The translations under genes and the position numbers were made by a program. Below, in pieces: positions 1 to 57,018 of a stretch of 64,000 nucleotides of DNA. Positions within the stretch are counted from its first letter, which is position 1. Each line of letters starts with the position of its first letter. The stretch comes from Streptomyces sp. SAI-127 (GTDB lineage Bacteria; Actinomycetota; Actinomycetes; Streptomycetales; Streptomycetaceae). The notes under the pieces were generated by a model. It worked only from the letters and a program-made list of their open reading frames with translations. It did no database searches and had not been told where the DNA came from. The stretch spans positions 6,468,501-6,532,500 of the forward strand of contig NZ_JARXYJ010000001.1 in NCBI RefSeq assembly GCF_029894425.1. The letters are read 5' to 3'.

Positions 1-1340
1 CGGGTTTGCCACAGGTCGCCTCCCTCGTACTTGCTCCGGAGCAGGGGAATCACCCCGCTGGGAATGCGGAACCCCTTCGCCCAGGAAGGGTCGGTGGCGT
101 GGCCGTAGACGGTGGTGAGCAGGAAAGGCTCCCCTCCTGTTAGGACACCTATCGCTTGCAGATCCCTCGACAGGGTGCCGATCGGTTGGGTGAAGCCGCG
201 GAGTCTGCGTGTCTCGTCGTAGCCGGCAAGCTCGTACACCGTCTCCCGGTCCACGAACCCGCCGTTTGCCGCAGCTGCAACGATTGCTTTGACTCGGGAT
301 GGGTAGCGCCTCATCAGCTCGTCCATGAATGCCGCCAGTGACTCCGCCGTCCAGGCTTCATCTTCGGAGCCTTTGTCGGCCGATGCCTCGCCCAGCTGCT
401 CCAGGTCGCGGACCGAGCCCTCGTCCACATTCAGTTCGAGGAGTTCTTTGGCCCAGCGGAGCAGTTCGCTTGGAGTGAGCATGTAGAGTCCCACCCCGGC
501 CTGCTCCCGTAGTTCCTGGAGGAGTTCGGCACGGGGACGAGGCGGGATGTCGTATCCGCGGTTGGTCCACCAGTCCTTCTTCATGTCCCCCGTGACCAGT
601 AGAACGTCGCATCCGCGGTGCCGGGCCTCCGCCATGAGCTGTACCCACACGAGGTAGTCACCGGCAGCTAGCTCGGGTTCCTTGGTGCGGAAGTCCTCGT
701 GCCCGGGCGGTATCCCCTCGTCGGCGCGCTCCTGCGCCTCTTTCACGGCGTTGTCGTATTCGTCCGACGGCAGCGGCTCGCCGACCCGGCCGTGCAGAAG
801 CGGTTCGAGGGCGTTGAGCACCGGGTCAGTGTGAGTGGTGGCAGTCTCCCTGAGTGCGTCGCACTCGGCCTGCGCCCGGATGAACTTTTGTAGGCTGCCA
901 GCTGCTTTGGCAAGCTCGGTCAGGTCTCGGTCAGTCCGCTCTACAGCCTCTTCGTTGTCCTTGAGTTGGACGGCGGTCAGCCAAGTGGTCACCACTGTCC
1001 GGGCCGCGTTGACCGCCTTATCGAGCGCGGCGCTCGCCTCATTGGCCTTGGTCGCGTGGTGATGGCGTACGGTCGGCGACTCGCGGTTACGCCAGAACTC
1101 CGTGAGCACCTGGTGTGGAATCCACAGGCGCTCGCGAAGTCTGGCGAGGGCGGCAAGGGTGTCCCGGCGGGTGCTCTCGTTCGAGCGGTAGAGGTTGAGC
1201 AGCACATTGGTGTCAAGCACGACCAGACCGGAATCGAAGATCCGCTTGTAGTCGGAGCGGAGTGGGCTGCGATGGGCCTCGTCGCAGTCGAAGACGCCCC
1301 GGACTTGCGGCTGGTCGGATGTGGCGTGCGCTGCTGCCAT
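1..1340 (-). CDS. PIN-like domain protein (PIN_8/DUF4935 type), C-terminus beyond window
   Basis: The frame is open from an ATG at 1340 to the window edge, about 446 codons. The N-terminus carries VVLDTNVLLNLYR near residue 30, a classic first PIN acidic motif (DTN), and a later segment reads VLLVTGDMKKDWW, the second acidic cluster of PIN nucleases (TGD). Between them lies a helical insert rich in charged residues. PIN-like proteins of this type are usually predicted metal-dependent RNases and often sit in defence or toxin neighbourhoods; that role here is inferred from family and context. The last third ends in an IPxGVIPLLRSKYEG segment with no recognised motif. It points the same way as the HTH gene behind it but is separated by 418 bp, so it probably has its own promoter. 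Confidence 0.75.
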   Translation of the reverse strand, partial: MAAAHATSDQPQVRGVFDCDEAHRSPLRSDYKRIFDSGLVVLDTNVLLNLYRSNESTRRDTLAALARLRERLWIPHQVLTEFWRNRESPTVRHHHATKANEASAALDKAVNAARTVVTTWLTAVQLKDNEEAVERTDRDLTELAKAAGSLQKFIRAQAECDALRETATTHTDPVLNALEPLLHGRVGEPLPSDEYDNAVKEAQERADEGIPPGHEDFRTKEPELAAGDYLVWVQLMAEARHRGCDVLLVTGDMKKDWWTNRGYDIPPRPRAELLQELREQAGVGLYMLTPSELLRWAKELLELNVDEGSVRDLEQLGEASADKGSEDEAWTAESLAAFMDELMRRYPSRVKAIVAAAANGGFVDRETVYELAGYDETRRLRGFTQPIGTLSRDLQAIGVLTGGEPFLLTTVYGHATDPSWAKGFRIPSGVIPLLRSKYEGGDLWQT

Positions 1341-1758
1341 GAAACGCTCCCCTGGAATCGTAAGGCGCATCAGCCCTCCCCGGCTGGGTGCGCAGGGGAA
1401 AGTCTAGGACCGGATAGAGCCACTGCGACCGAGAAAACAGCGGCGGTCCGACACCTCGGACGTCTGCCGATCACCGACCGTTCAGGGCTGGTCATCCGAC
1501 ACGATCCACGGCGAAGTACCCATGGCCCGGACAACGTCCAACTGACCTGTCAAGCACGGCCATCAGGAGCGATACACCTCATTGTGTTAGCCGTTCCAGC
1601 AGACCGGTGGTAGCTGTATCTCCCGCCAGCGCTGTTGTGTTGAGCTGAGTCACCGGCCGAGATGACGCGGTCCGGCCGTCGCCTTGACTGGTGCGCCTGT
1701 ACCAGGAACCCAAACAGGTGTCGCCAACGACCGTCCAACGAGCTCACGCGCCGGCCCA
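1341..1758. other. 418-bp stretch without a convincing gene
   Basis: This stretch lies upstream of the PIN-like gene and downstream of the HTH gene. Short open frames exist on both strands but none has a ribosome binding site or recognisable motif. It must hold the PIN gene promoter; I see no copy of the palindrome found at 2837-2908. Confidence 0.6.
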
Positions 1759-2727
1759 CTACCGCAAGGCCGCTCTCAGTATGGCGCCGGCGTCCTCTAT
1801 AGCTCCTTCCTCATGCAACTCCAGAGCTACGGCCATGATGTGCCGGTCTCCTTGATCACGCCCGTAGACGTGGATCAGGTTGTCGGCAAGGTGATCCCGC
1901 TCGTGTCGCCTCAGCTCGACCATGACGTGTGCGGTCTCGGCCGGGGTCAACAGCTCTGTCGTGCCCTGGCGGAGGAGGGTGAGGGCCAAGTTGGGCTTCC
2001 CGGTGCTGTCCAGTTCCCCCGCCTGTCTTGCGAGCTGCTGTGCTACGGCCTCCTCTTTTTTGCTCCGCTGCCGGTCCCTCTTCTGACGGGGGACCGGCAG
2101 CGGAGTTCTGGCTGCTTGCTCCGCCGCAAGACGTGCTTGCAGGCCGGCCTCGGTGGTTCTCATTTCCCGCACTGTGGCTCGAAGGGCCGCAACTTGGTTC
2201 TTCAGGGATGTCACCTGAACGGAGTCCGCAGCCTGTTGTCGCTGTTGACGTGCGGTACATGAAGGGCAAGCGATGTTGAAGCCCTGGGTGAGCGAATCGA
2301 TTCTCTTCCCCAGTTCGACGCACTGCCTGCAGCCTCGTCGTTCCCCCTCGGCGCTAGTGCGAAGGTCAAGTAAGACCTCACGTGTGATGCCGACATCCTG
2401 ACCGCGCGTGGCGGCGTCTGAGCAGGCCTCCTTGTACAGGCGTTCAACGAAACCCTCGTCGGGAACCCTGGGGTTGTCAGGGTCGTGGTTCAGGAAACGT
2501 GACAGGGAAGTCGCGTTGCTGAGCAGGCGAGTCGCGACCTCGTCCTGAGTCAGCGGCCTAGCTGCTGACTCATCTGATGCGCCCAAACCTTGATCATTTC
2601 GTCTCAGTAAGCGACACAAGGCGCGGAGGGCTAAGGCGAGTTCCCGCTTGCGTGGCGGACAGCTGTCGTGCAGGTCCCTCTCCAGCCAGCCGCGCCTGGG
2701 CGGACGGTCTCCCACGGGTGACGTCAT
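1759..2727 (-). CDS. HTH / zinc-ribbon / coiled-coil protein, probable regulator of the island
   Basis: This 322-aa protein has a helix-turn-helix-like segment at about residues 58-82 (LTQDEVATRLLSNATSLSRF), two CxxC pairs (C133/C136 and C154/C157) that could bind zinc, a coiled coil at about 160-205, and an all-helical C-terminal part (225-322) that looks repeat-like. Proteins of this plan are common in Streptomyces accessory regions and are usually called hypothetical. It is divergent from the HNH-like gene at 3080, and the 352-bp gap between them holds three palindromes, so it is the natural candidate to bind them; that is inference. The ATG at 2727 gives a plausible N-terminus. Confidence 0.7.
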   Translation of the reverse strand: MTSPVGDRPPRRGWLERDLHDSCPPRKRELALALRALCRLLRRNDQGLGASDESAARPLTQDEVATRLLSNATSLSRFLNHDPDNPRVPDEGFVERLYKEACSDAATRGQDVGITREVLLDLRTSAEGERRGCRQCVELGKRIDSLTQGFNIACPSCTARQQRQQAADSVQVTSLKNQVAALRATVREMRTTEAGLQARLAAEQAARTPLPVPRQKRDRQRSKKEEAVAQQLARQAGELDSTGKPNLALTLLRQGTTELLTPAETAHVMVELRRHERDHLADNLIHVYGRDQGDRHIMAVALELHEEGAIEDAGAILRAALR

Positions 2728-3079
2728 GCGGTTCTGCCTTCCAGAGCTGCTCAGGTGCCCTGAGGGATGTCACCCCAAGGCCGGTCTGCGATCCGGCAAT
2801 TGTGCCCGATTGCACTCGCCGTTACACCTGCCTTTTCTTGCCTTCTGCCAGGCAAGCTTGCTATTTCCCGAGCAAGTTAATACCCCTACTTGCTTTCTTC
2901 CGAGCAAGCGTGAATGGGCTGGACTTTTCCTCGCCTCATGGTGTGAGCTGCTGGAAGGGCTACCGAGGAGCGGGTGGGCTGCGGCAATTGAAGTGCATAC
3001 CGCCCAGTGGCGGTTCCTGCACGCTCTGAAACTGGCGACGGGCCAGGTTGCGCAAGTTCGCGGATTCAAGGAGGGGTAT
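2728..3079. promoter_or_regulatory. Divergent promoter region of the defence-like island
   Basis: This 352-bp stretch separates the HTH gene (leftward) from the HNH-like gene (rightward). It is noticeably less GC-rich around 2800-2910 and contains three related palindromes. An open frame crosses it in the frame of the HNH-like gene, but it overlaps the HTH coding region and lacks a good ribosome site, so I treat it as non-coding. Confidence 0.6.
2837..2908. promoter_or_regulatory. Three operator-like palindromes, CTTGCY-N8-RGCAAG
   Basis: Copies are at 2837-2856 (CTTGCC...GGCAAG), 2857-2876 (CTTGCT...AGCAAG) and 2889-2908 (CTTGCT...AGCAAG), each with an 8-base spacer. The first two abut and the third is centred 32 bp, about three helical turns, further on. 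Same-face spacing and divergent position fit an operator array. A fourth copy lies before the methyltransferase gene at 7164-7183. Confidence 0.7.
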
Positions 3080-3793
3080 ATGGAGGGAATTCCGTCTTAC
3101 CAGGACAAGACGTTCGGAACCATGGTGAGGGCCGCGCTCTGGCTGGTCACCGAGGTGGGGGAGGGCAGCGTCTTCACCAAGACACAGCTGCGCGAGGCGT
3201 TCCCGGAGGTCGCGCAGATTGACCGCAGGCTCCGTGATTTGCGCGACCACGGCTGGCGGATCGACACGAGCCGCGACGACCCCTCCCTGCTCCAGCAGGA
3301 GCAGCGGTTCGTGACCAGGGGCGCTGACGTCTGGATCCCGGGCAGGTCGAAGGCGCCGAAGCATAAGTCCAGCCTGACCGCTGCCCAGCGCGCGAAGGTT
3401 CTCCACGACGACAACCATTTGTGCCAGTCGTGTGGTGTCGGTGCCGGCGAGGCGTACGAGGACAGCGGCGGAGTCGAGCTTGCCAAGCTCAACGTCTCCA
3501 GGCGCAAGGTCCTGCACTCCGGCGAGGGCGAGAACGCGGTGGCTGAGTACCAGCTCATCACCGAGTGCAAGCGGTGCGGGACCGGGGGAGGGGCTGACCG
3601 TGAGGTCGACCTTGATGCGCTGCTGGAACTCGTAGAGGCGCTTGCCCCGTTGGAGCAGCGGCTCTTCGCTAAGTGGATTGCCGCTGACCAGCGGACGTTC
3701 AGCCCGATTGAAAAGATCTGGGGCATTTACCGGGCCCTTCCCCAGGAGTCGCGTGCCGCGGTGGGTAAGGCCATCGACGACATGACCAGCTGA
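3080..3793 (+). CDS. HNH-like (treble-clef) zinc protein, catalytic histidine not evident
   Basis: I start at the ATG at 3080 because GGAGGGG sits just upstream (3070-3076); this gives 237 aa. The N-terminal 90 residues look like a winged-helix DNA-binding part (helix, then LRDLRDHGWRIDT). The middle carries C115xxC118 and C163xxC166 spaced as in HNH nucleases of restriction systems. In relatives I know, the segment between reads like LTVGHIVPG with the catalytic His; here the matching segment reads LNVSRRKVL, and the final CxxC is followed by GTG rather than N or H. The zinc fold seems kept and the active site lost, so it may only bind DNA. It begins a rightward gene run with the ParB-fold gene 69 bp downstream. 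Confidence 0.65.
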   Translation: MEGIPSYQDKTFGTMVRAALWLVTEVGEGSVFTKTQLREAFPEVAQIDRRLRDLRDHGWRIDTSRDDPSLLQQEQRFVTRGADVWIPGRSKAPKHKSSLTAAQRAKVLHDDNHLCQSCGVGAGEAYEDSGGVELAKLNVSRRKVLHSGEGENAVAEYQLITECKRCGTGGGADREVDLDALLELVEALAPLEQRLFAKWIAADQRTFSPIEKIWGIYRALPQESRAAVGKAIDDMTS

Positions 3794-3862
3794 CGAAGAG
3801 CGGCAGCAGGAAAAGACGGACCGGCCACAGTAATTCAGCTACAGGGAAGGACGGTAAGGATC

Positions 3863-5296
3863 ATGCTGCGGGAGTTCCCGCCGCCGCCGCGCGCGGAGCA
3901 GTTCAGTGAGCTGATCAAGAAGAGGGTTGAGGAGGTGAGGGCCGCCGGAGGAACTCGGGAAACCGTCACCGTCGAGTGGAACGGACAACAGATCCACGTC
4001 GACGTGGTTGACCTTCCGCTGGGAGATCTCTACCTCAACCCCGGGACGCACCGGATTCGCGCCCAGCGCACCCACAAGCCGGACCAGGACCAGAACCTGG
4101 ACAAGGATCCCTTCGGAGAGGCTGGCCAGGAGTATCTGCGCGTTCTCCTCCAGGCTCGGCCGTCCAACCCGGAGCTGCGGGACCCCGACTTCGACAAGCT
4201 CAAGGAGGACCTGCGCCAGTTCGGGCAGAACGACCCTGGGCTGGTCACCCACCACGGGGTGCTGGTGAACGGCAACACCCGTGCTGTTGCCCTGCGGGAA
4301 CTCGGCGCGCAGTCGATGCGGGTGGGCGTGCTTCCCCCGTCATTTACTCAGGCCGACATCGACGCCGTAGAACTGGCGCTCCAGCTCCGTCAGGATCAGC
4401 GGCGCGACTACTCTTACATCAACCGGCTGCTCGCCATGGAAGAGCAGGCGACGTTGGGACGGACGCCTGAACAGATCTCCAAGGAGTTCCGGATCCGGAC
4501 GGCGACCTATCACCAGGAGCGATGGATCCTCAGCGTCATTAGGGAGCTGAACGACCGCAGCGCGAGCGGCGGGGGTGTAGCGCTGCGCCTGGTCGACTGG
4601 GAAGGGGCCCAGGAACGGCTCAAGGAGCTGGAGCGGCTGTACAAGAAGCTTGAGAACCTGGACCGGGACCAGGCCGAAATCCTGAAGGAGTGGCGCCTGG
4701 CGGCGATCCTGCTGGACTTCTCGAAGACGGACGTACGTCATATCGACGAGGTGTTCCTGGAAGAGGGGTACTTGGGGAAGGCGTTGCCGGCGGAGCTGGC
4801 GGACAGCGGGATGGCCGAGCCGGTCACGTCCGTCTCCATCCCCGGACTCGGCCTGGATGTGCCGGCTGCTTCGTCGGCCGTCTCCGCGGCCCGGGCCTTG
4901 AACGACCGCATCCTCCGGGCGGCTGCCACCGTCCGCAACACGACGGCGGGACTGCCCGACAGCGAGAAGGCTTCCGCGCAGGCGCTCCTCGACGGGGCCA
5001 AGGGTGCTTTCGACCAGGCGATCGACAGTCATGGCCGGGACGCCCGGGTCCGCAAGCGGAAGCAGCTTGCGCCGGCCCGGCTCGCGGACGCGTGCGCCAA
5101 CATCGACCAGTGCGTCATCGAGCTGGTCCAGGCCCGTACCTCAAACAGCTTGGACGAAGAGGCCTTCGACGAAGCTGTACTCAAGCTCCAGGGCAGTCTC
5201 CGCAAGCTTGCCCAGCAGGCCGGACGGGGCATCCCGAACCCCGGCGATGGGGTCTCGTGGCTCCTTGCCGCTGCCACCGCGGAGGGCTCCCGGTGA
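3863..5296 (+). CDS. ParB/sulfiredoxin-fold protein of a defence-like island
   Basis: The 477-aa protein has a ParB-type domain at about residues 50-158: VVDLPLGDLYLNPGTHRIRA, then LKEDLRQFGQNDPGLV, then LVNGNTRAVALREL, which corresponds to the ParB box II (G-x-R-R) that binds nucleotide in related folds. A helix-turn-helix-like stretch follows (TPEQISKEFRIRTATYHQERW, about 199-220). The C-terminal half is helical without known motif. It is not a chromosomal segregation ParB: no centromere-type HTH array and no ParA nearby. ParB-fold proteins in defence loci often act as nucleases or NTP-using sensors; here the role is unknown. The stop overlaps the GTG of the helicase by 4 bases, implying translational coupling and a joint function. 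Confidence 0.75.
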   Translation: MLREFPPPPRAEQFSELIKKRVEEVRAAGGTRETVTVEWNGQQIHVDVVDLPLGDLYLNPGTHRIRAQRTHKPDQDQNLDKDPFGEAGQEYLRVLLQARPSNPELRDPDFDKLKEDLRQFGQNDPGLVTHHGVLVNGNTRAVALRELGAQSMRVGVLPPSFTQADIDAVELALQLRQDQRRDYSYINRLLAMEEQATLGRTPEQISKEFRIRTATYHQERWILSVIRELNDRSASGGGVALRLVDWEGAQERLKELERLYKKLENLDRDQAEILKEWRLAAILLDFSKTDVRHIDEVFLEEGYLGKALPAELADSGMAEPVTSVSIPGLGLDVPAASSAVSAARALNDRILRAAATVRNTTAGLPDSEKASAQALLDGAKGAFDQAIDSHGRDARVRKRKQLAPARLADACANIDQCVIELVQARTSNSLDEEAFDEAVLKLQGSLRKLAQQAGRGIPNPGDGVSWLLAAATAEGSR

Positions 5297-7098
5297 CGGA
5301 AACGTCCCTGCACCTGAGGTTCGACGACACGCGTACCCGAGTGGTCCTGCGGACCAACGACACGTACCGGCAGAACCTCGTTCAGCTGGTCGCCCGGTTT
5401 CGTACCGGCGGCCAGCTGGGCCCCCTCTCCGCCTCGGTAGCGCTGGATGAACTCCTCGCGGAGCTAAGCGCGCTGAGCGGTTGGCCCGATCACGCCGGTG
5501 TCGTGTGGGCCCCGGAACTCCTGAATCTCGTGTCTGGGGTGGTCAAGGACGCCAGGCTGGTCGAAGACCGGCTGGCTGGTGTTGGTGCGGCTTCGGAAGT
5601 CGCTGCAGACGAAGTGCTGAGCCGGCTCGGCGATACCTGGGGGGCTGACCTCAACACGTTCCAGCGCCGGGACATCGCCAAGCTCCTGTCTCTGGGACAT
5701 GGGGCGAACTTCAGCGTGCCTGGCGCCGGCAAGACGCGTGTGGCCCTTGCGCTATACGCGGCCCAGCGGATCCAGAGGCACGTCAGCAGACTGCTGGTTG
5801 TCTGCCCCAAGTCGGCTTATGAGTCCTGGCGTTATGAGACTGCCGTCTGTTTCAACTACCCATTGCGCACGCATGTGCTGGACGGATCGCTGGATCAGTG
5901 GGCGGAGGTGCTGATAGTCAACTACGAGCGGCTGGACCGCTCACTGCCTCGGCTCGCGAACTGGCTGAAGTCCGCCCCCTCAATGATCGTCCTCGACGAG
6001 GCCCACCGGATGAAGCTTGGCGCCCGGGGGACATACGGCGCCGCGTGCATGGCATTGGGGCCGCTCGCGGAACGGCGGCTCATCTTGACTGGAACACCAG
6101 CTCCGAACGGATCCAAGGATTTGGAGAATCTTCTGGGCTTCGTTTGGCCTGGGCATGGCCAGCGGACGGTGACCCGGGCAGTAGCCGGCGGCGACCTCGC
6201 CTACGCGAGTACGGTCCTGCGGCCGCTGTTCACCCGTACCACTAAGCAGGAGCTCGGGCTGCCACCGATGACCCTGCGGATGCGGTACGTGGATATGCCG
6301 GCGCTGCATGCCGAGATCTACAGCTCATTGGTGGGCGGAATGTCCACCGGCACAGCACGCGACGATCTCAGCGCGCTCGGCAAGACCGCCTTGCGTCTGC
6401 TGATGGCTGCGACCAGTCCGGCACTGCTGCTGGAAGGCGCCACCAAACACGAGCCCCTTGCCTATCAACTGCCCCCACTGCAAATCCCGGTCGGCAGCTC
6501 GTTGTACTCGCTGATGCAGAATCTTCCCGACTACGAGCTGTCTCCGAAGTACAAGGAGGCGTTGGCGATCGTGGCCGAGAACGCCGCCCAGGGGCGTAAG
6601 ACACTGGTCTGGACGACCTTCGTACGCAGCCTGACGACCTTGGCTCAGATGCTGGAGAAGTACAGCCCGGCGGTCGTGTACGGCGGGACGCCAGACCGAG
6701 ATGAGCAGCTCCGCCGCTTTCGAGAAGATCCCAGCTGCATGGTGCTGATCTCCAACCCAGCCACCCTGGGTGAGGGGATCAGTCTTCACCACGTATGCCA
6801 CGACGCTGTCTACGTGGACCGGGACTTCATGGCCGGCCGCTATCTCCAGAGCCTTGACCGTATCCACCGCCTGGGCCTCGCCCCCGATACGGCGACGCGG
6901 GTCACGGTGATCGCGGCGCGCGGGACGATCGACGAGGTGGTCGAGGTGAGGATGGACCAGAAGCTCGAATTCATGGGGAAGATCCTTGACGACCCGACAG
7001 TCCAGCAGCTCGCGGATCTGGAGGAGGAGCCATCCGTAGCCGCCGGGCTCGCGCCTGGTGACGTTGAGGCGCTGCTACGGCATATTGGCGGCAGGTGA
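5293..7098 (+). CDS. SNF2-type superfamily 2 helicase/translocase
   Basis: GTG at 5293 is chosen because it forms a GTGA overlap with the ParB-fold gene and has GGAGGG 6 bases upstream; the open frame continues far upstream but over real coding sequence. The 601-aa product shows motif I as SVPGAGKTR (141-149), motif II as VLDEAHRMK (DEAH at 235-238), motif III-like LILTGTPAP (263-271) and motif VI as SLDRIHRLG (about 520-528). SNF2 proteins normally have DEMGLGKT at motif I; the VPGAGKT form is a variant. The two-lobed ATPase makes up almost the whole protein, with a 115-residue N-terminal domain of unknown fold and no nuclease domain visible. It likely moves on or remodels DNA for its partners. 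Confidence 0.85.
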   Translation: MTETSLHLRFDDTRTRVVLRTNDTYRQNLVQLVARFRTGGQLGPLSASVALDELLAELSALSGWPDHAGVVWAPELLNLVSGVVKDARLVEDRLAGVGAASEVAADEVLSRLGDTWGADLNTFQRRDIAKLLSLGHGANFSVPGAGKTRVALALYAAQRIQRHVSRLLVVCPKSAYESWRYETAVCFNYPLRTHVLDGSLDQWAEVLIVNYERLDRSLPRLANWLKSAPSMIVLDEAHRMKLGARGTYGAACMALGPLAERRLILTGTPAPNGSKDLENLLGFVWPGHGQRTVTRAVAGGDLAYASTVLRPLFTRTTKQELGLPPMTLRMRYVDMPALHAEIYSSLVGGMSTGTARDDLSALGKTALRLLMAATSPALLLEGATKHEPLAYQLPPLQIPVGSSLYSLMQNLPDYELSPKYKEALAIVAENAAQGRKTLVWTTFVRSLTTLAQMLEKYSPAVVYGGTPDRDEQLRRFREDPSCMVLISNPATLGEGISLHHVCHDAVYVDRDFMAGRYLQSLDRIHRLGLAPDTATRVTVIAARGTIDEVVEVRMDQKLEFMGKILDDPTVQQLADLEEEPSVAAGLAPGDVEALLRHIGGR

Positions 7099-7163
7099 GC
7101 TGTAGGGCTGTGCTCGACGGGGTCCGGTGTGGAATGTCACATCGGAGAGCAGCGCTTGTGATC

Positions 7164-7183
7164 CTTGCTCTGCCCCAGGCAAG
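7164..7183. promoter_or_regulatory. Fourth copy of the CTTGCY-N8-RGCAAG palindrome
   Basis: The site lies in the 209-bp gap before the methyltransferase gene, 125 bp upstream of its ATG. It sits inside a longer perfect inverted repeat (GATCCTTGC at 7160-7168 and GCAAGGATC at 7179-7187), so it could also form a hairpin behind the helicase gene. The shared half-sites and 8-base spacing suggest the same binding protein as at 2837-2908. Confidence 0.6.
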
Positions 7184-7307
7184 GATCATGGCTGAGGCAA
7201 TGGCACACTCGTGGTGTTGAGTGGGTGTCGAGTGCTCAAGGGCCAGCAAGTGATCATGGTCTCTGCAACACTTGGGACCAGTTTGAGTCACTCCTGGAAG
7301 GAGCGCC

Positions 7308-8672
7308 ATGAGCCCCAGCGGTCGCGAACGTCCGCAGTTCACCCGGCCCCTGACCTCGCTGGAGATCTGTGCCGGTGCGGGCGGACAAGCCGTGGGGTTG
7401 CACCATGCAGGGTTCGACCATCTGGGTCTCGTGGAGTGGGATGCACATGCGGTGGACACGCTCCGGGCGAATGTCGGTGGCTGGCCAGGGTGGGGGAAGG
7501 AGCGGACTGACAGCCTAAAGCCCATGGATGTGAACGATTTCCTTACCTCCGAGATTTACGAGAATCTTCGAAGTGTTCTTGATGTCAGTAAGGAAAGGCT
7601 GGATCTCCTGGCTGGCGGAGTCCCGTGCCCTCCTTTTTCCCTAGCAGGGAAGCAGTTGGGGGAGGATGATGAGCGGGACCTCTTTCCGGCGGCTCTTGAA
7701 ATCATTGAAGATCTCAGGCCGAGAGCGGTCATGATTGAAAATGTTCGCGGAATCCTGGAACCTCCGGAAGTATTTATTGATTACCGTAGAAGGATCCTCA
7801 AGGATCTTCGTGATTTCGGTTACGTAGTTCCAGAAGTCAAGGAGAGTTGGACTGCTGCAGAGCAGGATCGCGCCATGCGAAAGGTGTGGCGTCGGATCGA
7901 TGCGGCTCATTTTGGTGTCCCGCAACTCCGCCCGCGGGCCATTTTGGTTGTTATTCATGAAGATGTGCTGAAGACTGCAGATTTCGATTTCGTGTGGCCG
8001 TCTGAAATCAAGGGTAAGCGAGCGACTGTAGTCGATGAACTTGCTGCCACTATGGAGACGCGCTGCCGAAAGTATTGGTCGAAGAACGAGCGTGGGGAGC
8101 GCGCGACGGCAGGAGACCGCACTGGAAGGCACGTTTACCAGGAATGGCTGCGCAAGGCTTCCAGGGCGGCTGAGATTGGCCGCGGTGTGGCTCCGACCCT
8201 GGTAGGAGGGTCGAAGAAGCATGGCGGTGCGGACCTCGGGCCGACCAGGGCCAAGCGAGCTTGGGCGGCGCTAGGTGTGGACGGGATGGGTGTTGCCAAC
8301 GATCTCGATAAATGCGACCCGGAGCGGGATCTCTTCCGGCCTGCTGGCCCCATGCTGACTGTTGAGCAAGCTGCAATCATCCAGGGATTCCCCACTGACT
8401 GGAAGTTCCAGGGAAGGAAGACAGCTCAATACCGGCAAGTCGGAAACGCTTTTCCCCCTCCGGTTGCTGAGGCGGTTGGCCGTGCTATTGCTGCCGTACT
8501 CCGTCCGGAGCACCGCGATGAGCTTCTCCGCGAGTATGAACTGGACGTCGACGGCTCATCCGCAGATGCTCAGCAGGCCGAACAGATGACCCTCCCTGTA
8601 TCAGGTCGGTCGATTACCAACAGTCCGCCGTCGGTTAACCGCAGCGGCGATCTTGTCCGCACAAGCGTCTGA
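7308..8672 (+). CDS. DNA (cytosine-5) methyltransferase
   Basis: A strong GGAAGGAG (7296-7303) precedes the ATG. The 454-aa protein has motif I LEICAGAGGQAVGLHHAGF (18-36), motif IV GGVPCPPFSLAG with catalytic C107, motif VI MIENVRG (142-148), motif VIII FGVPQLRPRAILV and motif X QVGNAFPPPVA, in the usual order. The target recognition region lies between motifs VIII and IX (about 225-330); the recognised site cannot be read from sequence. It would methylate C5 of cytosine using S-adenosylmethionine. Codon use between 7540 and 8060 is clearly less GC-rich than the neighbours, a sign of horizontal transfer. The gene converges on vsr and their coding regions overlap by 72 bp. Confidence 0.93.
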   Translation: MSPSGRERPQFTRPLTSLEICAGAGGQAVGLHHAGFDHLGLVEWDAHAVDTLRANVGGWPGWGKERTDSLKPMDVNDFLTSEIYENLRSVLDVSKERLDLLAGGVPCPPFSLAGKQLGEDDERDLFPAALEIIEDLRPRAVMIENVRGILEPPEVFIDYRRRILKDLRDFGYVVPEVKESWTAAEQDRAMRKVWRRIDAAHFGVPQLRPRAILVVIHEDVLKTADFDFVWPSEIKGKRATVVDELAATMETRCRKYWSKNERGERATAGDRTGRHVYQEWLRKASRAAEIGRGVAPTLVGGSKKHGGADLGPTRAKRAWAALGVDGMGVANDLDKCDPERDLFRPAGPMLTVEQAAIIQGFPTDWKFQGRKTAQYRQVGNAFPPPVAEAVGRAIAAVLRPEHRDELLREYELDVDGSSADAQQAEQMTLPVSGRSITNSPPSVNRSGDLVRTSV

Positions 8673-9065
8673 CGGCTCGTGCTCCCAGAAACGGAGCACG
8701 AGCCACCCAGCTTCTTCAAGACGTTGATCAGTATCGCGGTCACGCTTAACGTTGCCGACAACCTTCTCTGACCAATAGCCAGAGTTCGTCTTTGGTGGAA
8801 CGTAATGCTCTGGGCATCCGTGCCAGTAGCAGCCATCGATGAAGACTGCCACCTTTGCTGGGCCGAACACCATGTCCGCAGTTCGGCGGAGGTCTGGCAG
8901 AGGACGCGCGTCGACGCGGTATCGCAGTCCTTGTGCGTGCACTAGTCGACGGATCAACTTCTCAGGCTTTGTGTCACGGCTGCGGATCGCCTGCATGTTG
9001 CGGCGCCGGGCTGCGGAGGAAGCCCAGGAGCCCTCTGGCGCTGTCCATTCGAGATCTTCGGGCAC
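8601..9065 (-). CDS. vsr: Very short patch repair (Vsr) endonuclease
   Basis: The 154-aa protein carries the Vsr signature: MQAIRSRDTKPE (24-35), TADMVFGPAKVAVFIDGCYWHGCPEH (catalytic Asp at 64, zinc ligand candidates C79, H82, C84) and NVKRDRDTDQRLEEAGWLVLRFWEHE (105-130). Vsr nicks beside T:G mismatches that arise when 5-methylcytosine deaminates, so it normally accompanies a cytosine-5 methyltransferase, as here. Length matches the family. It reads opposite to the methyltransferase and its last 24 codons are antisense to that gene. The 12-bp hairpin at 8674-8704 lies inside its coding region. Confidence 0.93.
   Translation of the reverse strand: MPEDLEWTAPEGSWASSAARRRNMQAIRSRDTKPEKLIRRLVHAQGLRYRVDARPLPDLRRTADMVFGPAKVAVFIDGCYWHGCPEHYVPPKTNSGYWSEKVVGNVKRDRDTDQRLEEAGWLVLRFWEHEPSDACADKIAAAVNRRRTVGNRPT
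8674..8704 (+). terminator. Perfect hairpin just after the methyltransferase stop
   Basis: GGCTCGTGCTCC (8674-8685) and GGAGCACGAGCC (8693-8704) form a 12-bp perfect stem with a 7-base loop, starting 2 bases after the stop codon. No T-run follows, which is common in Streptomyces. It lies within vsr on the other strand. Confidence 0.6.
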
Positions 9066-9188
9066 ATCGCTGAGCGTAGTACTGGTGGGAAGCGGCGGTT
9101 AGCCGGGTTCCGCATGGGCTCGTCGAGCAGTTGGCAGGGATGAGATGGAGCCCTCGGCCCCTTACCCGTCGTGGATACCTTGACCGCC

Positions 9189-9480
9189 ATGACTCAGATC
9201 TCTGGAAGCGATCAGTACCCTCGTCGCCTGGTCGGCAAGGTCGTCGTCGTTACCGGAGCGGCCAAAGGACAGGGCGCCGCCGAGGCTGCCGCCTTGCAGC
9301 AGGCTGGGGCCACCGTGATCGGGACCGATGCGCAGCCGGAGGGCAGTGAGTGTCGGCGAATCGATGTCAGTCGTGAGGCCGACTGGGCTGAGTTGGCCGC
9401 CGAGCTCAAGGAGACCCACGGCCAGGTGCATGGGCTGGTCAACAACGCGGGGATCATTCAGCGGGATCGGATCGACAGTG
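9189..9480 (+). pseudogene. Truncated 5' copy of a short-chain dehydrogenase
   Basis: From the ATG at 9189 to 9480 this aligns without a gap, offset exactly 2601 bp, to the first 292 bp of the SDR gene at 11790 (about 86% identical protein). It keeps the TGAAKGQG cofactor loop and an NNAG motif, then homology stops abruptly after GATCGACAGTG and unrelated sequence follows; the open frame runs on to 9560 with no SDR features. The YxxxK active site is missing, so it cannot work. It looks like the product of a duplication followed by deletion or by insertion of the cassette between the copies. Confidence 0.8.
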
Positions 9481-9802
9481 GACGGCAACCGCTTCGCCTG
9501 GTGAACACTACGCAGGGCGTGTACGAAGTTGAGGGCGAACACGCGGTCCCGCGCTCATGACAACGACGTTGCCCTGAGCGCGGGCGTGCTCAAGGCGCTG
9601 CGGCTGACGTCCTGAAGGCGGGCGGACGTGGAGCAGGGGCAGTCCTCCTGCTCCACGTCCGTCGATCGTCGGTTGTTGCCGCGCTCCCAGGTAGGGACTC
9701 AAGGCGCGGCTAGAACTGGTTCGTGCGACCTGCAAACTGATGCGGCCTTGTGTTAGGAACGTTGAGGAACTTGCCTGACACAACATGCCGCACGGGGGAT
9801 GC
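9481..9802. other. Recombination junction and intergenic stretch before the T7SS-like cassette
   Basis: The first 135 bp look like the tail of some other gene: one frame reads HDNDVALSAGVLKALRLTS and then a stop at about 9614-9616, but I do not recognise it. A strong hairpin follows at 9624-9660. The rest must hold the promoter for the gene at 9803. Confidence 0.45.
9624..9660 (+). terminator. 14-bp perfect hairpin terminator
   Basis: GGACGTGGAGCAGG (9624-9637) pairs perfectly with CCTGCTCCACGTCC (9647-9660) around a 9-base loop, 7 bp after the stop of the unidentified gene tail. It is the strongest terminator-like hairpin in the first 20 kb and marks the end of a gene that is otherwise lost. 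Confidence 0.7.
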
Positions 9803-10135
9803 ATGGCGTCACAGTATGCAGTCACGCAGGACGCACTGACTCGATTCTCAAGGACTGCGCAGGAGCGCGCTGAGCGGCTGCGGCGGATCCGGGAGGCGCT
9901 GGGTGCGCACTCTCCCGGTGCGAACGCTTTCGGCAAGCTCCCGGAGTCCCAGGAGACCGGTCAGGACTACCGCGAGCGTGTCGACGCCACATTGGAGAAC
10001 CTCGACTTCGCGGCAGGACAGCAGGAGCAGATCGCCGAGTTCATCGAGCGGACTGGTCGCTCGTACCAGGAGGTCGAGGACCACACGGTGGACCAGGTCC
10101 GTAGCATCGCGGCCCAGTCTCGGGGGGCGATGTGA
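9803..10135 (+). CDS. Small WXG100-like protein, candidate type VII secretion substrate
   Basis: I prefer the ATG at 9803 (110 aa), close behind GGGGGA; a longer start at 9785 is possible. The product is all-helical, about 100 residues, charged, without signal peptide, and contains SYQEVEDH near the C-terminus, matching the YxxxD/E export signal of ESX substrates. It lacks an obvious WxG turn, which the next gene has. The stop overlaps the GTG of the next gene by 4 bases (GTGA), so the two are coupled, as in ESX substrate pairs. No ESX ATPase or membrane core is in this window. Confidence 0.6.
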   Translation: MASQYAVTQDALTRFSRTAQERAERLRRIREALGAHSPGANAFGKLPESQETGQDYRERVDATLENLDFAAGQQEQIAEFIERTGRSYQEVEDHTVDQVRSIAAQSRGAM

Positions 10136-11079
10136 GCGGGCCGGCAGGTGCGGTGGTCGATGCCTACGGCAAGGTCAACGACTGGATGAGCCCGCTCAGC
10201 GGGCTGCTCGACGAGCTGATGCGCCCGGTGGTGGAACCGCTGGCCGAGCAGCTCGAATTCGTCACCGGCGATCCCGAAGGCCTCCAGGACGCTGCTGATC
10301 TGTGGGCCAAGCAGGCTGGTGCGCTCCGTGATCTCCTAGCCGACCAACGGCGTGACCGCGCAGATCTCGCTCATGAATGGTCCGGCGGGGCAGCTGACGC
10401 CTTCTTCAACGAACTCATCGACCTGGAAGCGGAGTTCGATGCCGAGGCCGCGGACATGGAGGGAACGGCCGAGCTGCTCCGGGAAGCGGCCGAAGAGTGC
10501 CGCATGATCCAGGAGATGGTCGAGACGGTCATCCGCGAGCTGATTGAATGGGCGCTGATCACTCTCGCTGCTTCCGCCGCCTTCGCCGCGCTGACCGCGG
10601 GTGTTTCCGCGGCCGCCGGTGCCGCCGCGGCCGCCGCTGAGGGCTCCTTGGCCGCCACCCGGATCGCGAGCCTGGTGGCACGGCTCGCCAGAGCCTTGGA
10701 GAAGATCGCGGAGCGCATGAGGGCGCTCAGCGTGCTCGCCAAGACGAACAGGTTCAGTACGGCCAAGCCGTGGACCTGGAAGCACGTCGGCGACTTGCAG
10801 ACCCCCGACGGGCTGCGAGCCTTCGTCGCTCAGCGGGTCGTGAAGACCACGGGAAAGGCGGCACTCGGCGCGGTCGGCCTCACAGGTGACCCTGTCGGAC
10901 AGACAAATCAGGAAGGCATGCAAGGCGCCATGGGCATCGGCGCCGACGAAGCCGACGACCGGCTGGCGGGGAACCGCAATCCCAGTACGGCGGCTCGTGA
11001 GGATCTCGGAATCGCCAACCCGTCAGATCACGATCATCAGACGGTGGAACCCCGGTTCCGGGACAATCCATTCGGCTGA
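10132..11079 (+). CDS. Long WXG-domain protein, candidate T7SS partner or effector
   Basis: The 315-aa protein starts at a GTG overlapping the previous stop. Residues 1-130 are helical with EWSGGAADAF (about 83-92), a WxG-type turn followed by acidic helices. Residues about 138-180 are very Ala-rich (LAASAAFAALTAGVSAAAG) and may form a hydrophobic hairpin. The C-terminal 100 residues are polar and Gly/Asp-rich with no recognised toxin motif. WXG proteins with C-terminal extensions are often polymorphic toxins, but I see no catalytic signature, so an effector role is only a possibility. The next gene follows after 28 bp. Confidence 0.6.
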   Translation: MSGPAGAVVDAYGKVNDWMSPLSGLLDELMRPVVEPLAEQLEFVTGDPEGLQDAADLWAKQAGALRDLLADQRRDRADLAHEWSGGAADAFFNELIDLEAEFDAEAADMEGTAELLREAAEECRMIQEMVETVIRELIEWALITLAASAAFAALTAGVSAAAGAAAAAAEGSLAATRIASLVARLARALEKIAERMRALSVLAKTNRFSTAKPWTWKHVGDLQTPDGLRAFVAQRVVKTTGKAALGAVGLTGDPVGQTNQEGMQGAMGIGADEADDRLAGNRNPSTAAREDLGIANPSDHDHQTVEPRFRDNPFG

Positions 11080-11107
11080 CCACTCGTCCGATCAGAGAGA
11101 CACGGGA

Positions 11108-11734
11108 ATGAACGACGATTGCCGCGACCAGGTCCAGCCGCACCTCCAGGCCGCGGAGCGGCTGATCGCAGGCTGCAAGTGCTACATGGCTCCAGGGGTA
11201 CCCGAGCGGCCGGTCTGGTTGAGACAGCTACCGCAGGAGTCGGAACTGGAGCGACGGATCAAGTCCCGCCTCCCCCGGGCGGTACAAAGATTCCTGCGGC
11301 CGAGTGAACCGAAGCCCGTCGGGCGGGTGGAACGGAGGATGGAAGGTGCCGAGCTGGCTGTCGACAACGCTTTCACACAGGCAGCTCACGGCAAGGGCAT
11401 GCATGGCGGATGGGAGAGCCAGGCCGGGCAGTTCCTGGTGACGCACTACAGCGCCGCGCCCGCCTCGACGCTGGTGGTCGCATTCACCGACCGCCGGGTG
11501 CTCGTACTGGCGGACCGCGCAAAACTCTGGCAGACCAGTCAGGTGTTCGAGCCGCAGTGGGAGGCTCCGCGCTCCACTGCCCTCGGAGTCCGGGCCAACC
11601 CCAAGGGTGTGCTCCAGCGCGGCCGCTTCGAGCTGCTGTTCGCTGACGGGTCGTGGATCGCGTTGGTGGCGTCAGTGCCGACGCATGCCGAGCCGTTCGC
11701 GGCACAGGTGGGTGGCTGGCAGATCGCCGAGTAA
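11108..11734 (+). CDS. Unrecognised protein in the T7SS-like cassette
   Basis: I start at the ATG at 11108, 28 bp after the WXG gene; the open frame extends upstream only over that gene. The 208-aa product has no signal peptide or membrane helix. Its second half (STLVVAFTDRRVLVLAD...GRFELLFADGSWIALV) is a run of short beta strands that resembles PH-like domains, but I do not recognise the family. As third gene of the cassette it could be a chaperone, immunity or recognition factor for the upstream pair; that is guesswork from position. Confidence 0.55.
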   Translation: MNDDCRDQVQPHLQAAERLIAGCKCYMAPGVPERPVWLRQLPQESELERRIKSRLPRAVQRFLRPSEPKPVGRVERRMEGAELAVDNAFTQAAHGKGMHGGWESQAGQFLVTHYSAAPASTLVVAFTDRRVLVLADRAKLWQTSQVFEPQWEAPRSTALGVRANPKGVLQRGRFELLFADGSWIALVASVPTHAEPFAAQVGGWQIAE

Positions 11735-11789
11735 GGGCAAGAGGCTCGCGGGAAGGGGCTGCTCACCTGCTGCGGCTATGTTTTCCGCC

Positions 11790-12554
11790 ATGACTCGGAT
11801 CTCCAAAAGTGATCAACCGGCCCAGCGGCTGGTCGGCAAGGTCGTCGTCGTTACCGGAGCAGCCCGGGGGCAGGGGGCTGCCGAGGCTGCCGCCTTGGCC
11901 CTGGCGGGGGCCACCGTGATCGGGACCGATGCGCGGCCGGAGGGCAGTGAGTGTCGGCGGCTGGATGTCAGTCGTGAGGGCGACTGGGCTGAGTTGGCCG
12001 CCGAGCTCAAGGAGACCTACGGCCAGGTGCATGGGCTGGTCAACAACGCGAGGATCATTCAGCGGGATCGGATCGACAGTGTTCGGGCTGAGGACTTCGC
12101 GCAGGTGCAGGCCGTGAATACCGTTGGGCCGTTGCTCGGGATTCAGTACCTCTCTCCGCTGATGACGAGTGGGGCGTCCATCGTGAATGTCGGGTCTTCC
12201 GCTGCGCTCACCGGGTACTACCCCGTTGCCTACACCGCCAGTAAGTGGGCTCTGCGTGGGGTGTCGAAGGTTGCCGCCATGGAGTTGGGGCCTCGGGGGA
12301 TTCGGGTCAATACCGTGCATCCCGGGTACATCGAGACGGAGATGACCGCCGGGGCTACGGAGGCCTTTCGGGACGCAACCATCGGGGAGACGCCGTTGGG
12401 GCGGAGTGGGACCGTTGCTGACATCGCTCCGCTTGTGGTGTTTCTGCTGAGCGACGAGTCCTCGTTCATTACCGGTGCGGAGATTCCTGTGGACGGGGGC
12501 CTTACCGTGCACGGTGGTGTCAAGTCCATCTCCGATGCGATGAAGGCCGGTTGA
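11790..12554 (+). CDS. Short-chain dehydrogenase/reductase (full-length copy)
   Basis: The 254-aa SDR has the cofactor loop TGAARGQG near residue 21, a catalytic Ser in NVGSSAALTG, YTASK (YxxxK) and a C-terminal GGLTVHGG, all as in classical SDRs of the 3-alpha/20-beta-hydroxysteroid type. One residue stands out: the conserved NNAG that stabilises the central sheet reads NNAR here, while the truncated copy at 9189 has NNAG. A start at 11778 is also in frame, but 11790 matches the other copy. Substrate unknown. The next gene starts 15 bp downstream. Confidence 0.88.
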   Translation: MTRISKSDQPAQRLVGKVVVVTGAARGQGAAEAAALALAGATVIGTDARPEGSECRRLDVSREGDWAELAAELKETYGQVHGLVNNARIIQRDRIDSVRAEDFAQVQAVNTVGPLLGIQYLSPLMTSGASIVNVGSSAALTGYYPVAYTASKWALRGVSKVAAMELGPRGIRVNTVHPGYIETEMTAGATEAFRDATIGETPLGRSGTVADIAPLVVFLLSDESSFITGAEIPVDGGLTVHGGVKSISDAMKAG

Positions 12555-12569
12555 CAGGAGCAGTGATCG

Positions 12570-13208
12570 TTGGGTGCCCGGGAGCGTGTCCGTAAGGTGT
12601 ACCGGCCGCTGTGGCGGGCCGGGATCGAGGTGATTCTGAATGCCGTGCCGGACGGTGTGATGCCGTTCGTCGTCGGATACGACGCCGAAGATGTGGTCGG
12701 CGGCTTCTCCCACCCGTACGACACCCCGCGGCTTGTCGAGCGACTCAATGCGGACTGGTACGACCTCGCTGTCTCCTCGGGCCTTCTCGACCACCGGCGC
12801 GAGTTTCTCGTGCAGCTCCCGCAAGGCACCAGGTCGCACCAGGCTGCCCTGCGGCACCTGCACAGCGACAGTTGCACCGCGCCGGCGGTCTGGACCCGGG
12901 GCCGGCTCCTGGAGCGCTGGGACATCATGGGCCGGGCTGCGGCATCGGCGTTCCTCGGCGTTCACGCGGGTCACCCGGGCTTCGCCATGATGGCTCTCGA
13001 CAGCAGCGTGTACGTCCACGCCTCAACGGGCGAGATCGGCGTCGACGTGCTCGCGGTGCGCCACCCGGACCGCTCGGAGAACGTCCTGAGGCACCTGGAA
13101 CGGATAGCGGTTCACGACAGTCCCTACGTCAATCGCGAGTTCAAGGAGCGGATCGCCGTCTGGCTTGCGGGGCGCGGACGATGCGCTGTCGGTCCTTCAG
13201 ACGGTTGA
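12570..13208 (+). CDS. Unrecognised soluble protein
   Basis: A TTG at 12570 has CAGGAG 9 bases upstream and is the best start; it gives 212 aa. The sequence has no signal peptide, no membrane segment and no motif I recognise. It contains mixed alpha/beta patterns (VILNAVPDGVMPFVVGYDAEDVVGGF and FAMMALDSSVYVHAST). It lies 15 bp behind the SDR gene and may be cotranscribed with it. Coding potential is supported by the strong third-position GC bias. Confidence 0.55.
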   Translation: MGARERVRKVYRPLWRAGIEVILNAVPDGVMPFVVGYDAEDVVGGFSHPYDTPRLVERLNADWYDLAVSSGLLDHRREFLVQLPQGTRSHQAALRHLHSDSCTAPAVWTRGRLLERWDIMGRAAASAFLGVHAGHPGFAMMALDSSVYVHASTGEIGVDVLAVRHPDRSENVLRHLERIAVHDSPYVNREFKERIAVWLAGRGRCAVGPSDG

Positions 13209-13387
13209 TGGCGCGGCGCCCCGAGCGGTCGGCAGAAGGACGAGGTCGAGGTCGCTGGAACCCGTTCGTCGGTGCAATACGGCGGAGATTTCGTGAAAAG
13301 CCGGGTGTTGACCCCGCGACAAGCAGAGCATTCCGAGTGCCATCTGTCATGTACCGGATTAGCGACATCTCACCACAGGAGTTGCGG

Positions 13388-13867
13388 ATGAAGCGTTTAC
13401 GGAGAACACAGCTGCTCGGCCTCGGTGTCATGGCGCTGATGCTCGGTCTGGTCGCCGCGCCGACCGCGCAGGCGGCACCGGCCGGGGTAGCAACTGCCGC
13501 CGCTCCCACGGCCGTTGAGTGCAGCGGCAGCTGGGACGGCAAGTCGTACTGGGCCAAGAGCCCTTCGGGGAGCAACGGGGGCGGGTACGCGCGCACCTAC
13601 TGGAACGCCTCGACCAAGCGGAACTGCGCGAAGTTCTTCTCCAGCCCGTACGACGGTCTGGCGTCCAACATCACGCTGTACCTCCACGACGAGAGCGGTG
13701 ACTACGTCGCCGACCCGCCGCCGGAGCACCCGGCGAACTACCACTACTACGCCGGGCCGCTCTACACCTGGTTCGACGCGACCAATGAGTGCATCCACCT
13801 GAGCGGGTCACTGATCCGGGGCGGGGTGAGGTACACCCTCAGCACCCCGGACATCCGGTGCGGCTGA
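13388..13867 (+). CDS. Small secreted protein
   Basis: The ATG at 13388 follows CAGGAG (13376-13381). The 159-aa precursor begins MKRLRRTQLLGLGVMALMLGLVAAPTAQA, a clear Sec signal peptide cleaved after AQA. The mature part is about 130 residues, rich in Tyr, Trp, Ser and Gly, with four Cys that could form two disulfides (CSG, NCAK, ECIH, RCG). I recognise no enzyme motif. Similar small extracellular proteins of unknown role are common in Streptomyces. Confidence 0.75.
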   Translation: MKRLRRTQLLGLGVMALMLGLVAAPTAQAAPAGVATAAAPTAVECSGSWDGKSYWAKSPSGSNGGGYARTYWNASTKRNCAKFFSSPYDGLASNITLYLHDESGDYVADPPPEHPANYHYYAGPLYTWFDATNECIHLSGSLIRGGVRYTLSTPDIRCG

Positions 13868-14219
13868 TCCAACGGGGTTGAATCGTCCAGCGGCACCGCT
13901 CACTTCATAGGTGCCGTCGGGCCGCCCGCTTCTTGGTCAGTGTCGTGCGTCCGCGGCCTGCCTCAAGGGCGCTCCCTGCGGTCGCGTCGCCTGCGGCGAT
14001 CGGCCTTCGGCTGCCCCTTGACCCAGTCCGCTCCAGCACGGGGGAGAAGCGAGCGGGCGGCCCGAAAGGGCGGGTGGCCCAGGTGAGTTCAGGGTCGGGT
14101 CGGTCGTCATGTCGGCCGGGGTTGGGGGTGCGCGGTCGCGTCTCGCCTGCACGCCGGGTTGGTTCGGCGGCTTGCGGCCGGAAGGGCGGATTGTCAGTGG
14201 GCGTCGGCATGATGGCCCG
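13868..14219. other. 352-bp intergenic stretch with inverted repeats
   Basis: A hairpin (CGGCACC 13891-13897 with GGTGCCG 13910-13916) follows the secreted protein gene. CGGGCCGCCCGCT (about 13918-13930) is repeated inverted as AGCGGGCGGCCCG near 14050-14064. Between them lie several short CG-rich self-complementary blocks. This looks like a Streptomyces repetitive extragenic element rather than a gene. Confidence 0.45.
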
Positions 14220-14577
14220 GTGGATGATCTCGCTGTGCTGCGGCAGGAGTTCTCGGGGGATGAGGACGCGTTTCTTGTGATCTTGATCAGGGATCACCGG
14301 TGGGACAAGGGGGCCTTCTCCCGTCTGGAGCGGGCGATGCGCGGTGTGTGCGAGGTGTTCGAGGAGCGCGGGCAACAGGACTTGCCGCGATGGCTGGTGG
14401 AAGGGTTCTGGCTGTGTGCTGACTGGCTTCCGAGCCAGACGGAGCATCCGCGGTTTCCCAGGCCTGAACCGTCGGCCTACTACGAGGGCGGCTCTCACGA
14501 GGTTGCGAGACCTTCAGTATTGGCTGGTCACGGGAGAATCGCCGTACCTGACGGGCAGTCCGGTGGCGGATCTGTAG
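14220..14577 (+). pseudogene. Frameshifted small gene of unknown function
   Basis: From a GTG at 14220 the frame encodes DDLAVLRQEFSGDEDAF and on to PRPEPSAYYEG. At that point coding shifts by one base: the neighbouring frame continues ALTRLRDLQYWLVTGESPYL to a stop at 14577. Removing one G from the GGG at 14486-14488 would join the two parts into a single protein of about 118 aa, which matches a small Streptomyces protein family I remember with YYE...RLRDLQYWL. I do not know its function. This is either a real single-base insertion or a sequencing error. Confidence 0.55.
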
Positions 14578-14651
14578 GACGGTCCGTACAAGAAGGAGGG
14601 GCGGGCCCCGGCGCCGGCCAGCGGCTCTTCGGGCCCGCCCCACCCCGTCGC

Positions 14652-56987: not shown

Positions 56988-57018
56988 TTTCCGCGAACAC
57001 GCCTCGCCATCGACAACG

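Follow-up and report, generated by a model that had tools for sequence, protein, structure and literature searches.

The DNA examined here is a window of 64 kb (64,000 nucleotides, the whole stretch that was analysed) from Streptomyces sp. SAI-127, whose positions 1-9065 had been singled out by an initial annotation as a candidate undescribed defence module with genes for PIN, helix-turn-helix (HTH), HNH-like, ParB-fold, SNF2, cytosine methyltransferase and Vsr proteins. All seven open reading frames (ORFs) are present, and the unit they form is narrower than first noted: it spans 1759-9065 and consists of the 'HTH' gene, an HNH-like gene (HNH1), a ParB-fold gene, a SNF2-family ATPase gene, a C5-cytosine methyltransferase (C5-MTase) gene and a Vsr mismatch endonuclease gene. 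We consider it likely that this locus is a defence system of the restriction-modification (R-M) type in which the HNH-like, ParB-fold and SNF2 proteins replace the classical endonuclease.

Pfam agrees with the assigned identities of the SNF2, C5-MTase, Vsr and PIN_8 proteins (Table 1). The ParB-fold call is upheld by a match to phrog_620 and by motifs kept in relatives, with TIGR03454 reaching just E 0.004; Pfam returned no match for this protein, and no ParB family. The stop codon of its gene and the start of the SNF2 gene do share a GTGA (5293-5296), and the C5-MTase gene is indeed AT-richer, its GC content being 0.587 against 0.627-0.666 for the HTH, HNH, ParB and SNF2 genes (vsr, 0.602); this lean is milder in other loci, where the median GC content is 0.620 for the C5-MTase gene and 0.650 for the ParB gene. 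The vsr gene is convergent with the C5-MTase gene and overlaps its 3' end. The start of HNH1 is the ATG at 3080, which follows a GGAGG-type ribosome site, and not the earliest possible ORF start (2648). Two of the assigned identities fare less well. The HNH-like protein contains a four-cysteine (Cys4) beta-beta-alpha element, but its profile support is weak (phrog_8446, E 0.006) and its catalytic residues are gone. The 'HTH' gene is linked to the unit, but its product gave zero HTH matches in four profile libraries, and Pfam matches at chance level only. It is single copy in the host genome, and its position suggests that it specifies a probable regulator of the locus.

Searches with the ParB protein in 150 Streptomyces genomes and in 394 genomes of the class (the host genome being counted in both) identified carriers in 26 and 10 genomes, respectively; as the initial annotation required, the pair is accessory and not housekeeping. 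A scan of GTDB genomes with the same protein, from which the best 80 of 222 relatives were kept, brought the collection to 101 distinct loci (78 named and 23 other) once 10 duplicates and two distant loci (L062 and L063) had been removed. Using cut-offs of 100 bits, and a permissive 25 bits for HTH, we found HNH1, SNF2 and C5-MTase around ParB in all 101 loci, Vsr in 100 and HTH in 92; L111, one of the nine loci that HTH misses, is cut by a contig end. The predicted linkage of the ParB/SNF2 pair with the HNH-like and methyltransferase genes in other genomes is therefore complete in this actinomycete set. The distance between C5-MTase and ParB is 8.9 kb in L072 and L074 and mostly 3-6 kb elsewhere. 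Because the C5-MTase and Vsr genes vary in orientation and order, and HNH1 is inverted in a few loci, the linkage is more than the inheritance of a single stretch. The association of these genes is more than chance, and the only C5-MTase in the 10.7-Mb host genome sits here.

Evidence as to what the HNH-ParB-SNF2 set does comes from the relatives of its methyltransferase. Searching the 150 Streptomyces genomes with the window's C5-MTase (E <= 1e-60), we identified 32 loci in 31 genomes, 20 with the set and 12 without it. One of the 12, L220, is a decaying orphan whose C5-MTase has an in-frame stop and which has no Vsr, NaeI or ParB set; the remaining 11, all intact, each carry the endonuclease NaeI. 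Within the stretch examined, NaeI is also found in five of the 20 set-bearing loci (G036, G047, G048, which was scored via its duplicate L142, G101 and G134), and the difference (11/11 versus 5/20) gives a Fisher exact p of 6.8e-5, a calculation that takes the genomes to be independent although they are so only in part. One locus supplied a NaeI homologue that can be aligned along its length to the NaeI of PDB 1ev7 (E 4e-85). No match to the NaeI endonuclease family (PF09126) was found in the whole host genome. Its closest relative sampled, G140 (95% in the SEC-C gene), has NaeI, Vsr and the C5-MTase at the same chromosomal site. On a quick IQ-TREE phylogeny of 97 C5-MTase sequences (rows below 480 bits were left out), the three effector states require 12 changes, whereas shuffling gives a mean of 24.7; the states thus group together on the tree but have switched repeatedly. 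A well-supported branch sets the window's enzyme and 48 others, from Streptomyces, Saccharopolyspora, Saccharothrix and Actinacidiphila, apart from the rest; each of the 48 comes with the ParB set, and NaeI accompanies none of them. Linkage joins the methyltransferase to a putative restriction partner, as in R-M systems: the C5-MTase is in every ParB locus, and NaeI is in every intact locus without the set. Because same-family methyltransferases lacking the set carry NaeI, and G140 has NaeI at the same site, HNH-ParB-SNF2 is probably the restriction arm for the site that NaeI cuts.

NaeI recognizes GCCGGC. The site is printed as GCC|CCG in the available part of a review (PMC4081073). The catalytic PCPPFS of the C5-MTase is conserved; the core, written GGSKKHGGADLGP or APTLVGGSKKHGGADLGPTRAK, is common to the window enzyme and the NaeI-linked methyltransferases and nearly identical between the two types. 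From these similarities we infer that the C5-MTase would target GCCGGC, a reading that predicts a specific methylation site. A literature search on GCCGGC methylation in Streptomyces returned nothing useful.

Table 1. Features of the locus, its flanks and distant relatives (positions are those of the window or, for protein X, of the locus named)
Feature	Position	Strand	Details
'HTH' gene	1759..2727	-	divergent, 322 aa; profile match in 92/101 loci
HNH-like gene (HNH1)	3080..3793	+	237 aa; Cys4 beta-beta-alpha element, H-N-N missing
ParB-fold gene	3863..5296	+	477 aa; phrog_620 E 1.6e-7; NPxTHR and NGNTR (P-motif-like) motifs
SNF2-family ATPase gene	5293..7098	+	601 aa; PF00176 E 4e-17
C5-cytosine methyltransferase gene	7308..8672	+	454 aa; PF00145 E 3e-50
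Vsr mismatch endonuclease gene	8601..9065	-	154 aa; PF03852 E 2e-20, TIGR00632 E 6.5e-39
PIN_8 gene, non-member	1-1370, open at window edge	-	PF18476 E 5e-57
Non-member stretch with PIN_8 gene	1..1750		right part of stretch absent from collinear carriers
SEC-C gene, flank marker, non-member	14655..15662	-	name by eye from CWCGSG motif
Protein X, before ParB	L152 7060-7926; L153 599-1558; L154 7144-7989; L063 8215-9198 (distant Streptomyces)		282-327 aa

We examined HNH1 in 222 partly overlapping sequences, drawn from the window, the 101 loci and a further 120 proteins in databases. The zinc cysteines C115, C118, C163 and C166 are present in 100% of these sequences. In contrast, the place of the catalytic histidine is taken by R142 (99%), the element ends in Cys-x-x-Cys-Gly/Arg instead of Cys-x-x-Cys-Asn, the strict H-N-N motif occurs in none of the 222, and zero conserved His or Asn residues are left in the element; Y126 (95%) and E162 (98%) are also conserved. 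An AlphaFold2 model (predicted local distance difference test (pLDDT) 85, predicted template modelling score (pTM) 0.60) comprises a winged-HTH-like N-terminal region (residues 14-79), the beta-beta-alpha element (137-169) and C-terminal helices, and a PDB sequence search with the HNH profile gave no meaningful match. Five HNH relatives were fetched from outside the loci (L223-L227; weaker matches in G108 and G010 were left out), four of which (L223-L226) have H-N-N by eye; the fifth, L227, is without the zinc element. We rejected HNH1 as a plain HNH nuclease on the grounds that its motif count is 0/222 when most fetched relatives look intact. A canonical second HNH gene is found in L143, L145, L149, L150 and L048 (LTLGHVNPH...ECARCNE in L145 and L149, for example), and four of these loci have another methyltransferase next to it. 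This arrangement resembles an ordinary HNH restriction pair and could be the type from which HNH1 descended. We read HNH1, from its sequence, as a putative former endonuclease retained for DNA recognition.

In the ParB-fold protein, N59, P60, T62, H63, R64, N138, R140 and E170 are 100% conserved in 102 rows, and N138 and R140 are kept even in L062 and L063. Both marks of the ParB/Srx NTPase fold, the sequence family (phrog_620) and the P-motif arginine (N138, R140), are present; the AlphaFold2 model has a pLDDT of 87 and a pTM of 0.76, and a PDB sequence search with the ParB profile gave no meaningful match. Because the P-motif arginine is conserved, and because replacing the Box II P-motif arginine abolished nucleoside triphosphate (NTP) binding in the ParB-fold proteins covered by the accessible part of PMC12704722, analogy suggests that the window's protein binds nucleotide. 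The SNF2 protein keeps Walker A (GAGKT), DEAH and QSxDRIHRLG, each position being 94-100% conserved except V233, and no nuclease domain was found in it. Apart from Vsr, none of the unit's proteins could be recognised as an active nuclease from profile libraries and the HNH motif check. Vsr itself was considered as the restriction nuclease and rejected, as it accompanies NaeI too.

Plasmid searches for ParB-SNF2 pairs, with matches confirmed by our own profiles, identified relatives carried by Pseudomonadota and Bacillota plasmids, of which only some have a methyltransferase. A protein designated X occupies the place of HNH1 in Rhizobium, Kozakia, Mesorhizobium and Azospirillum, where a NOV_C nuclease follows the pair; three of these four Alphaproteobacteria also have C5-MTase and Vsr close by, Kozakia having neither within 10 kb. 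Protein X was read in Rhizobium, Kozakia and Mesorhizobium; Pfam gave no match in the three tested, and one matches PHROG phrog_31486 (unknown function). Lactiplantibacillus has dcm, ParB, a PLD-SNF2 fusion (PLDc_2), a MutH-like protein and Vsr, and Priestia has dcm, ParB, SNF2 and MutH/Sau3AI. Enterococcus accounts for 52 of the 71 matching plasmid records in one search; two of its plasmids, L160 and L162, also carry a sigma-HTH protein of 860-870 aa with ParB and SNF2, and a literature search on Enterococcus plasmids returned nothing useful. As the pair has relatives in other phyla, some of them without a methyltransferase, it is a wider module than the R-M setting and is not always methylation-guarded. 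On a Paracoccus plasmid (L158, 6140-11956), ParB-SNF2 lies behind a gene that by eye is amino-methyltransferase-like (N4/N6 type) and before a DUF3883-like ORF; this is possibly a variant with another guard.

The inference that the system is methylation-guarded, with ParB-fold and SNF2 proteins as effector, agrees with the constant presence of the C5-MTase in the actinomycete loci but does not extend to those relatives that lack a methyltransferase. Linkage and the exchange with NaeI lend good support to a restriction-type system whose effector is HNH-ParB-SNF2. We propose that the methyltransferase would mark the host at one site, presumably GCCGGC, and that Vsr would mend T:G mismatches arising from 5-methylcytosine. 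The HNH-like protein may read the unmethylated site, the ParB-fold protein may be a DNA-loading factor or a clamp under the control of a nucleotide switch, and SNF2 may supply an ATP-driven motor; most likely the reader would recruit the ParB clamp and the motor, and unmethylated DNA would thereby be stopped. We lean towards motor-driven blocking or nicking over a double-strand cut by HNH1. A bolder proposal, which we hold tentatively as possible but short of even chances, is restriction without a restriction enzyme: an ex-HNH reader, a ParB clamp and a SNF2 motor would act with no dedicated nuclease and would have been exchanged repeatedly with NaeI next to one and the same methyltransferase family, and ParB-SNF2 would be a general effector core in three phyla with varied readers and nucleases.

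Several observations weigh against replacement of the endonuclease by these three proteins. The linkage was counted with profiles seeded from the same loci, 78 of the 101 loci come from the best 80 of 222 relatives, leaving divergent loci under-sampled, and L062 and L063, the most distant Streptomyces loci, lack HNH1 and have only a divergent C5-MTase. On a plasmid of S. albidoflavus, close ParB, SNF2 and NOV_C genes (profile scores 524, 924 and 287) stand in 21 kb that contain no HNH1, C5-MTase or Vsr, and in Enterococcus L160 (5384-11059) and L162 (5350-11045) ParB and SNF2 occur with no methyltransferase in the two stretches scanned. With regard to the target site, the NaeI-linked methyltransferases are just 29-48% identical to the window's enzyme over residues 225-345, and the whole set retains the core, which leaves no enzyme of other known specificity as a discriminating control. 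Nor are the second HNH copies all canonical: the strict motif is found in 5/12, and by eye the histidine is kept in L080, L096 and L131 and lost in L041 and L137 (L112 is truncated and L111 unrelated). In L223 (7097-9860) the canonical HNH has beside it a weak match to the ParB profile (20 bits) but no SNF2, and therefore is not clearly away from ParB. HNH active sites, moreover, can be non-canonical, as in PacI. Likewise, according to the available part of PMC4081073, the letters H-N-H are often only weakly linked to the real catalytic residues. HNH1 might accordingly be an active, non-canonical nuclease in an ordinary multi-subunit NTP-dependent restriction enzyme in which HNH cuts, SNF2 moves and ParB regulates, a possibility that fits its intact Cys4 fold and the conservation of Y126, R142 and E162 nearby. 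We regard this as unlikely, given that the motif is entirely lost here while most of the fetched family members elsewhere or beside a second methyltransferase keep it, and that the element lacks any conserved His or Asn.

A somewhat less doubtful alternative, though still an unlikely one, is that the ParB-fold protein or an accessory nuclease does the cutting. ParB/Srx proteins can nick DNA, according to the accessible part of PMC12839542, yet the invariant residues of the window's protein resemble a nucleotide-binding P-motif and no known nuclease site. Candidate accessory cutters are the NOV_C/DUF3883 nuclease next to SNF2 in 18 of the 101 loci, the MutH-like neighbour of the PLDc_2-SNF2 fusion in Lactiplantibacillus and MutH/Sau3AI in Priestia; against them, 66 of the 101 loci have neither NaeI nor NOV_C in the stretch examined. 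It is also conceivable that C5-MTase and Vsr form one unit, and HNH-ParB-SNF2 a separate Type IV-like system against modified DNA that merely shares a hotspot. C5-MTase and Vsr flip together and occur without the ParB set, and the hotspot also gathers other systems. The S. albidoflavus plasmid, moreover, carries a ParB-SNF2-NOV_C set without a methyltransferase. We consider separate systems quite improbable because attacking the neighbour's own mark would be self-toxic; further, a C5-MTase accompanies the ParB set in each of the 101 loci, and 15 of the 20 set-bearing Streptomyces loci lack NaeI. Hardly credible, finally, is a chance or housekeeping association, in which genes for chromosome partition or remodelling would happen to lie next to a methylase that has nothing to do with them. 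Partition and chromatin functions are indeed known for proteins with ParB and SNF2 folds, but the restricted distribution in Streptomyces, the single methyltransferase of the genome and the unbroken linkage all argue against it.

The edges of the unit were placed by blastn of the window and the upstream contig against carrier loci. Among the 12 carriers listed, collinear blocks correspond to -3965..-2143, 1750..9080 (the system) and 14652 onward (the SEC-C gene). The upstream block, which holds an XRE/DUF5753-type regulator and an ATPase gene, is aligned in nine of the 12, and in L040 only 20 bases separate it from the system block, versus ~3.9 kb in the window (-2143..1750). The latter comprises the PIN gene together with ORFs that by eye resemble transposases, and is absent from those carriers. 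Because carriers do without this stretch, we excluded the PIN gene that had been counted as a member. PIN-like genes do occur near L055 and L056 (32-34% identity) and at two other hotspot sites. On the other side, the 5.6 kb at 9080..14652 is absent from the listed carriers, and the non-carrier L193 has parts of it. The SEC-C gene is present in 119/150 Streptomyces genomes and is collinear in carriers. Within the 5.6-kb stretch, which G140 partly shares, similar short-chain dehydrogenase starts at 9171-9560 (truncated) and 11607-12554 bracket two genes that are WXG100/ESX-like by eye. Further along, three minus-strand tRNA-Lys(CTT) genes lie within 21 kb (36509-36583, 42323-42398 and 57018-57092) and are possible attachment sites for elements.

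If our interpretation is correct, a textbook restriction enzyme has been swapped for a motor and ParB-fold complex beside the same methylation guard, which would allow defence with and without cutting to be compared in a naturally occurring pair and would mean that ParB-fold NTP switches serve not only chromosome segregation but also the distinction of self from non-self. We flag the cross-phylum ParB-SNF2 core in particular, for which, as for the gene set as a whole, no published description was found in a search that left bioRxiv and most subscription journals outside its reach.

PADLOC bears out the claim that the set matches no named defence system: the HNH and ParB proteins have no family match at E 0.01, and a known system was rejected since the seven genes include no further marker proteins. 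Zorya is marked by ZorA/ZorB with ZorD, and a partial ZorD match of SNF2 (57 bits) is the sole likeness among the seven proteins. DISARM is marked by the DrmA/DrmB pair; SNF2 partially matches DrmD and the C5-MTase matches DrmMII, with no DrmA or DrmB match among the seven. By PADLOC models, the C5-MTase resembles DruM2 of Druantia, whose other markers are absent from the seven genes, and the SNF2 motor also partly resembles DpdE. The nearest system in print, judging from the available part of PMC2292703 (Iyer, Abhiman and Aravind 2008), is that of the MORC/paraMORC operons, which share a SWI2/SNF2 helicase, HNH, cytosine methylases and Vsr with the locus described here. They differ from it in that a ParB-fold protein is present here and the catalytic motif is missing from HNH; no GHKL/MORC profile match was found in the 64-kb window, and the count of 'ParB' in the text of PMC2292703 available is 0. 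CglI and NgoAVII NTP-dependent restriction, as portrayed in parts of PMC4267653 and PMC5737866, likewise combines a methyltransferase with a separate restriction protein and a helicase-like ATPase, and an excerpt of a 2021 paper (PMC8011034) notes two-component-like genes in the vicinity of ParBc, HNH and Vsr domains. In GmrSD and other ParB/HNH restriction enzymes (accessible part of PMC12839542), the ParB fold and HNH are joined in defence as they are here, but GmrSD is a one-protein Type IV enzyme, whereas the present locus keeps them on separate proteins and adds a motor and a methylation guard. The locus shares the methyltransferase family, its core motif and Vsr with the Type IIE R-M system of NaeI, which in G140 occupies the same position on the chromosome; it differs in that the host genome has no NaeI, and the probable restriction arm is made up of an HNH-like protein, a ParB-fold protein and a SNF2 ATPase.

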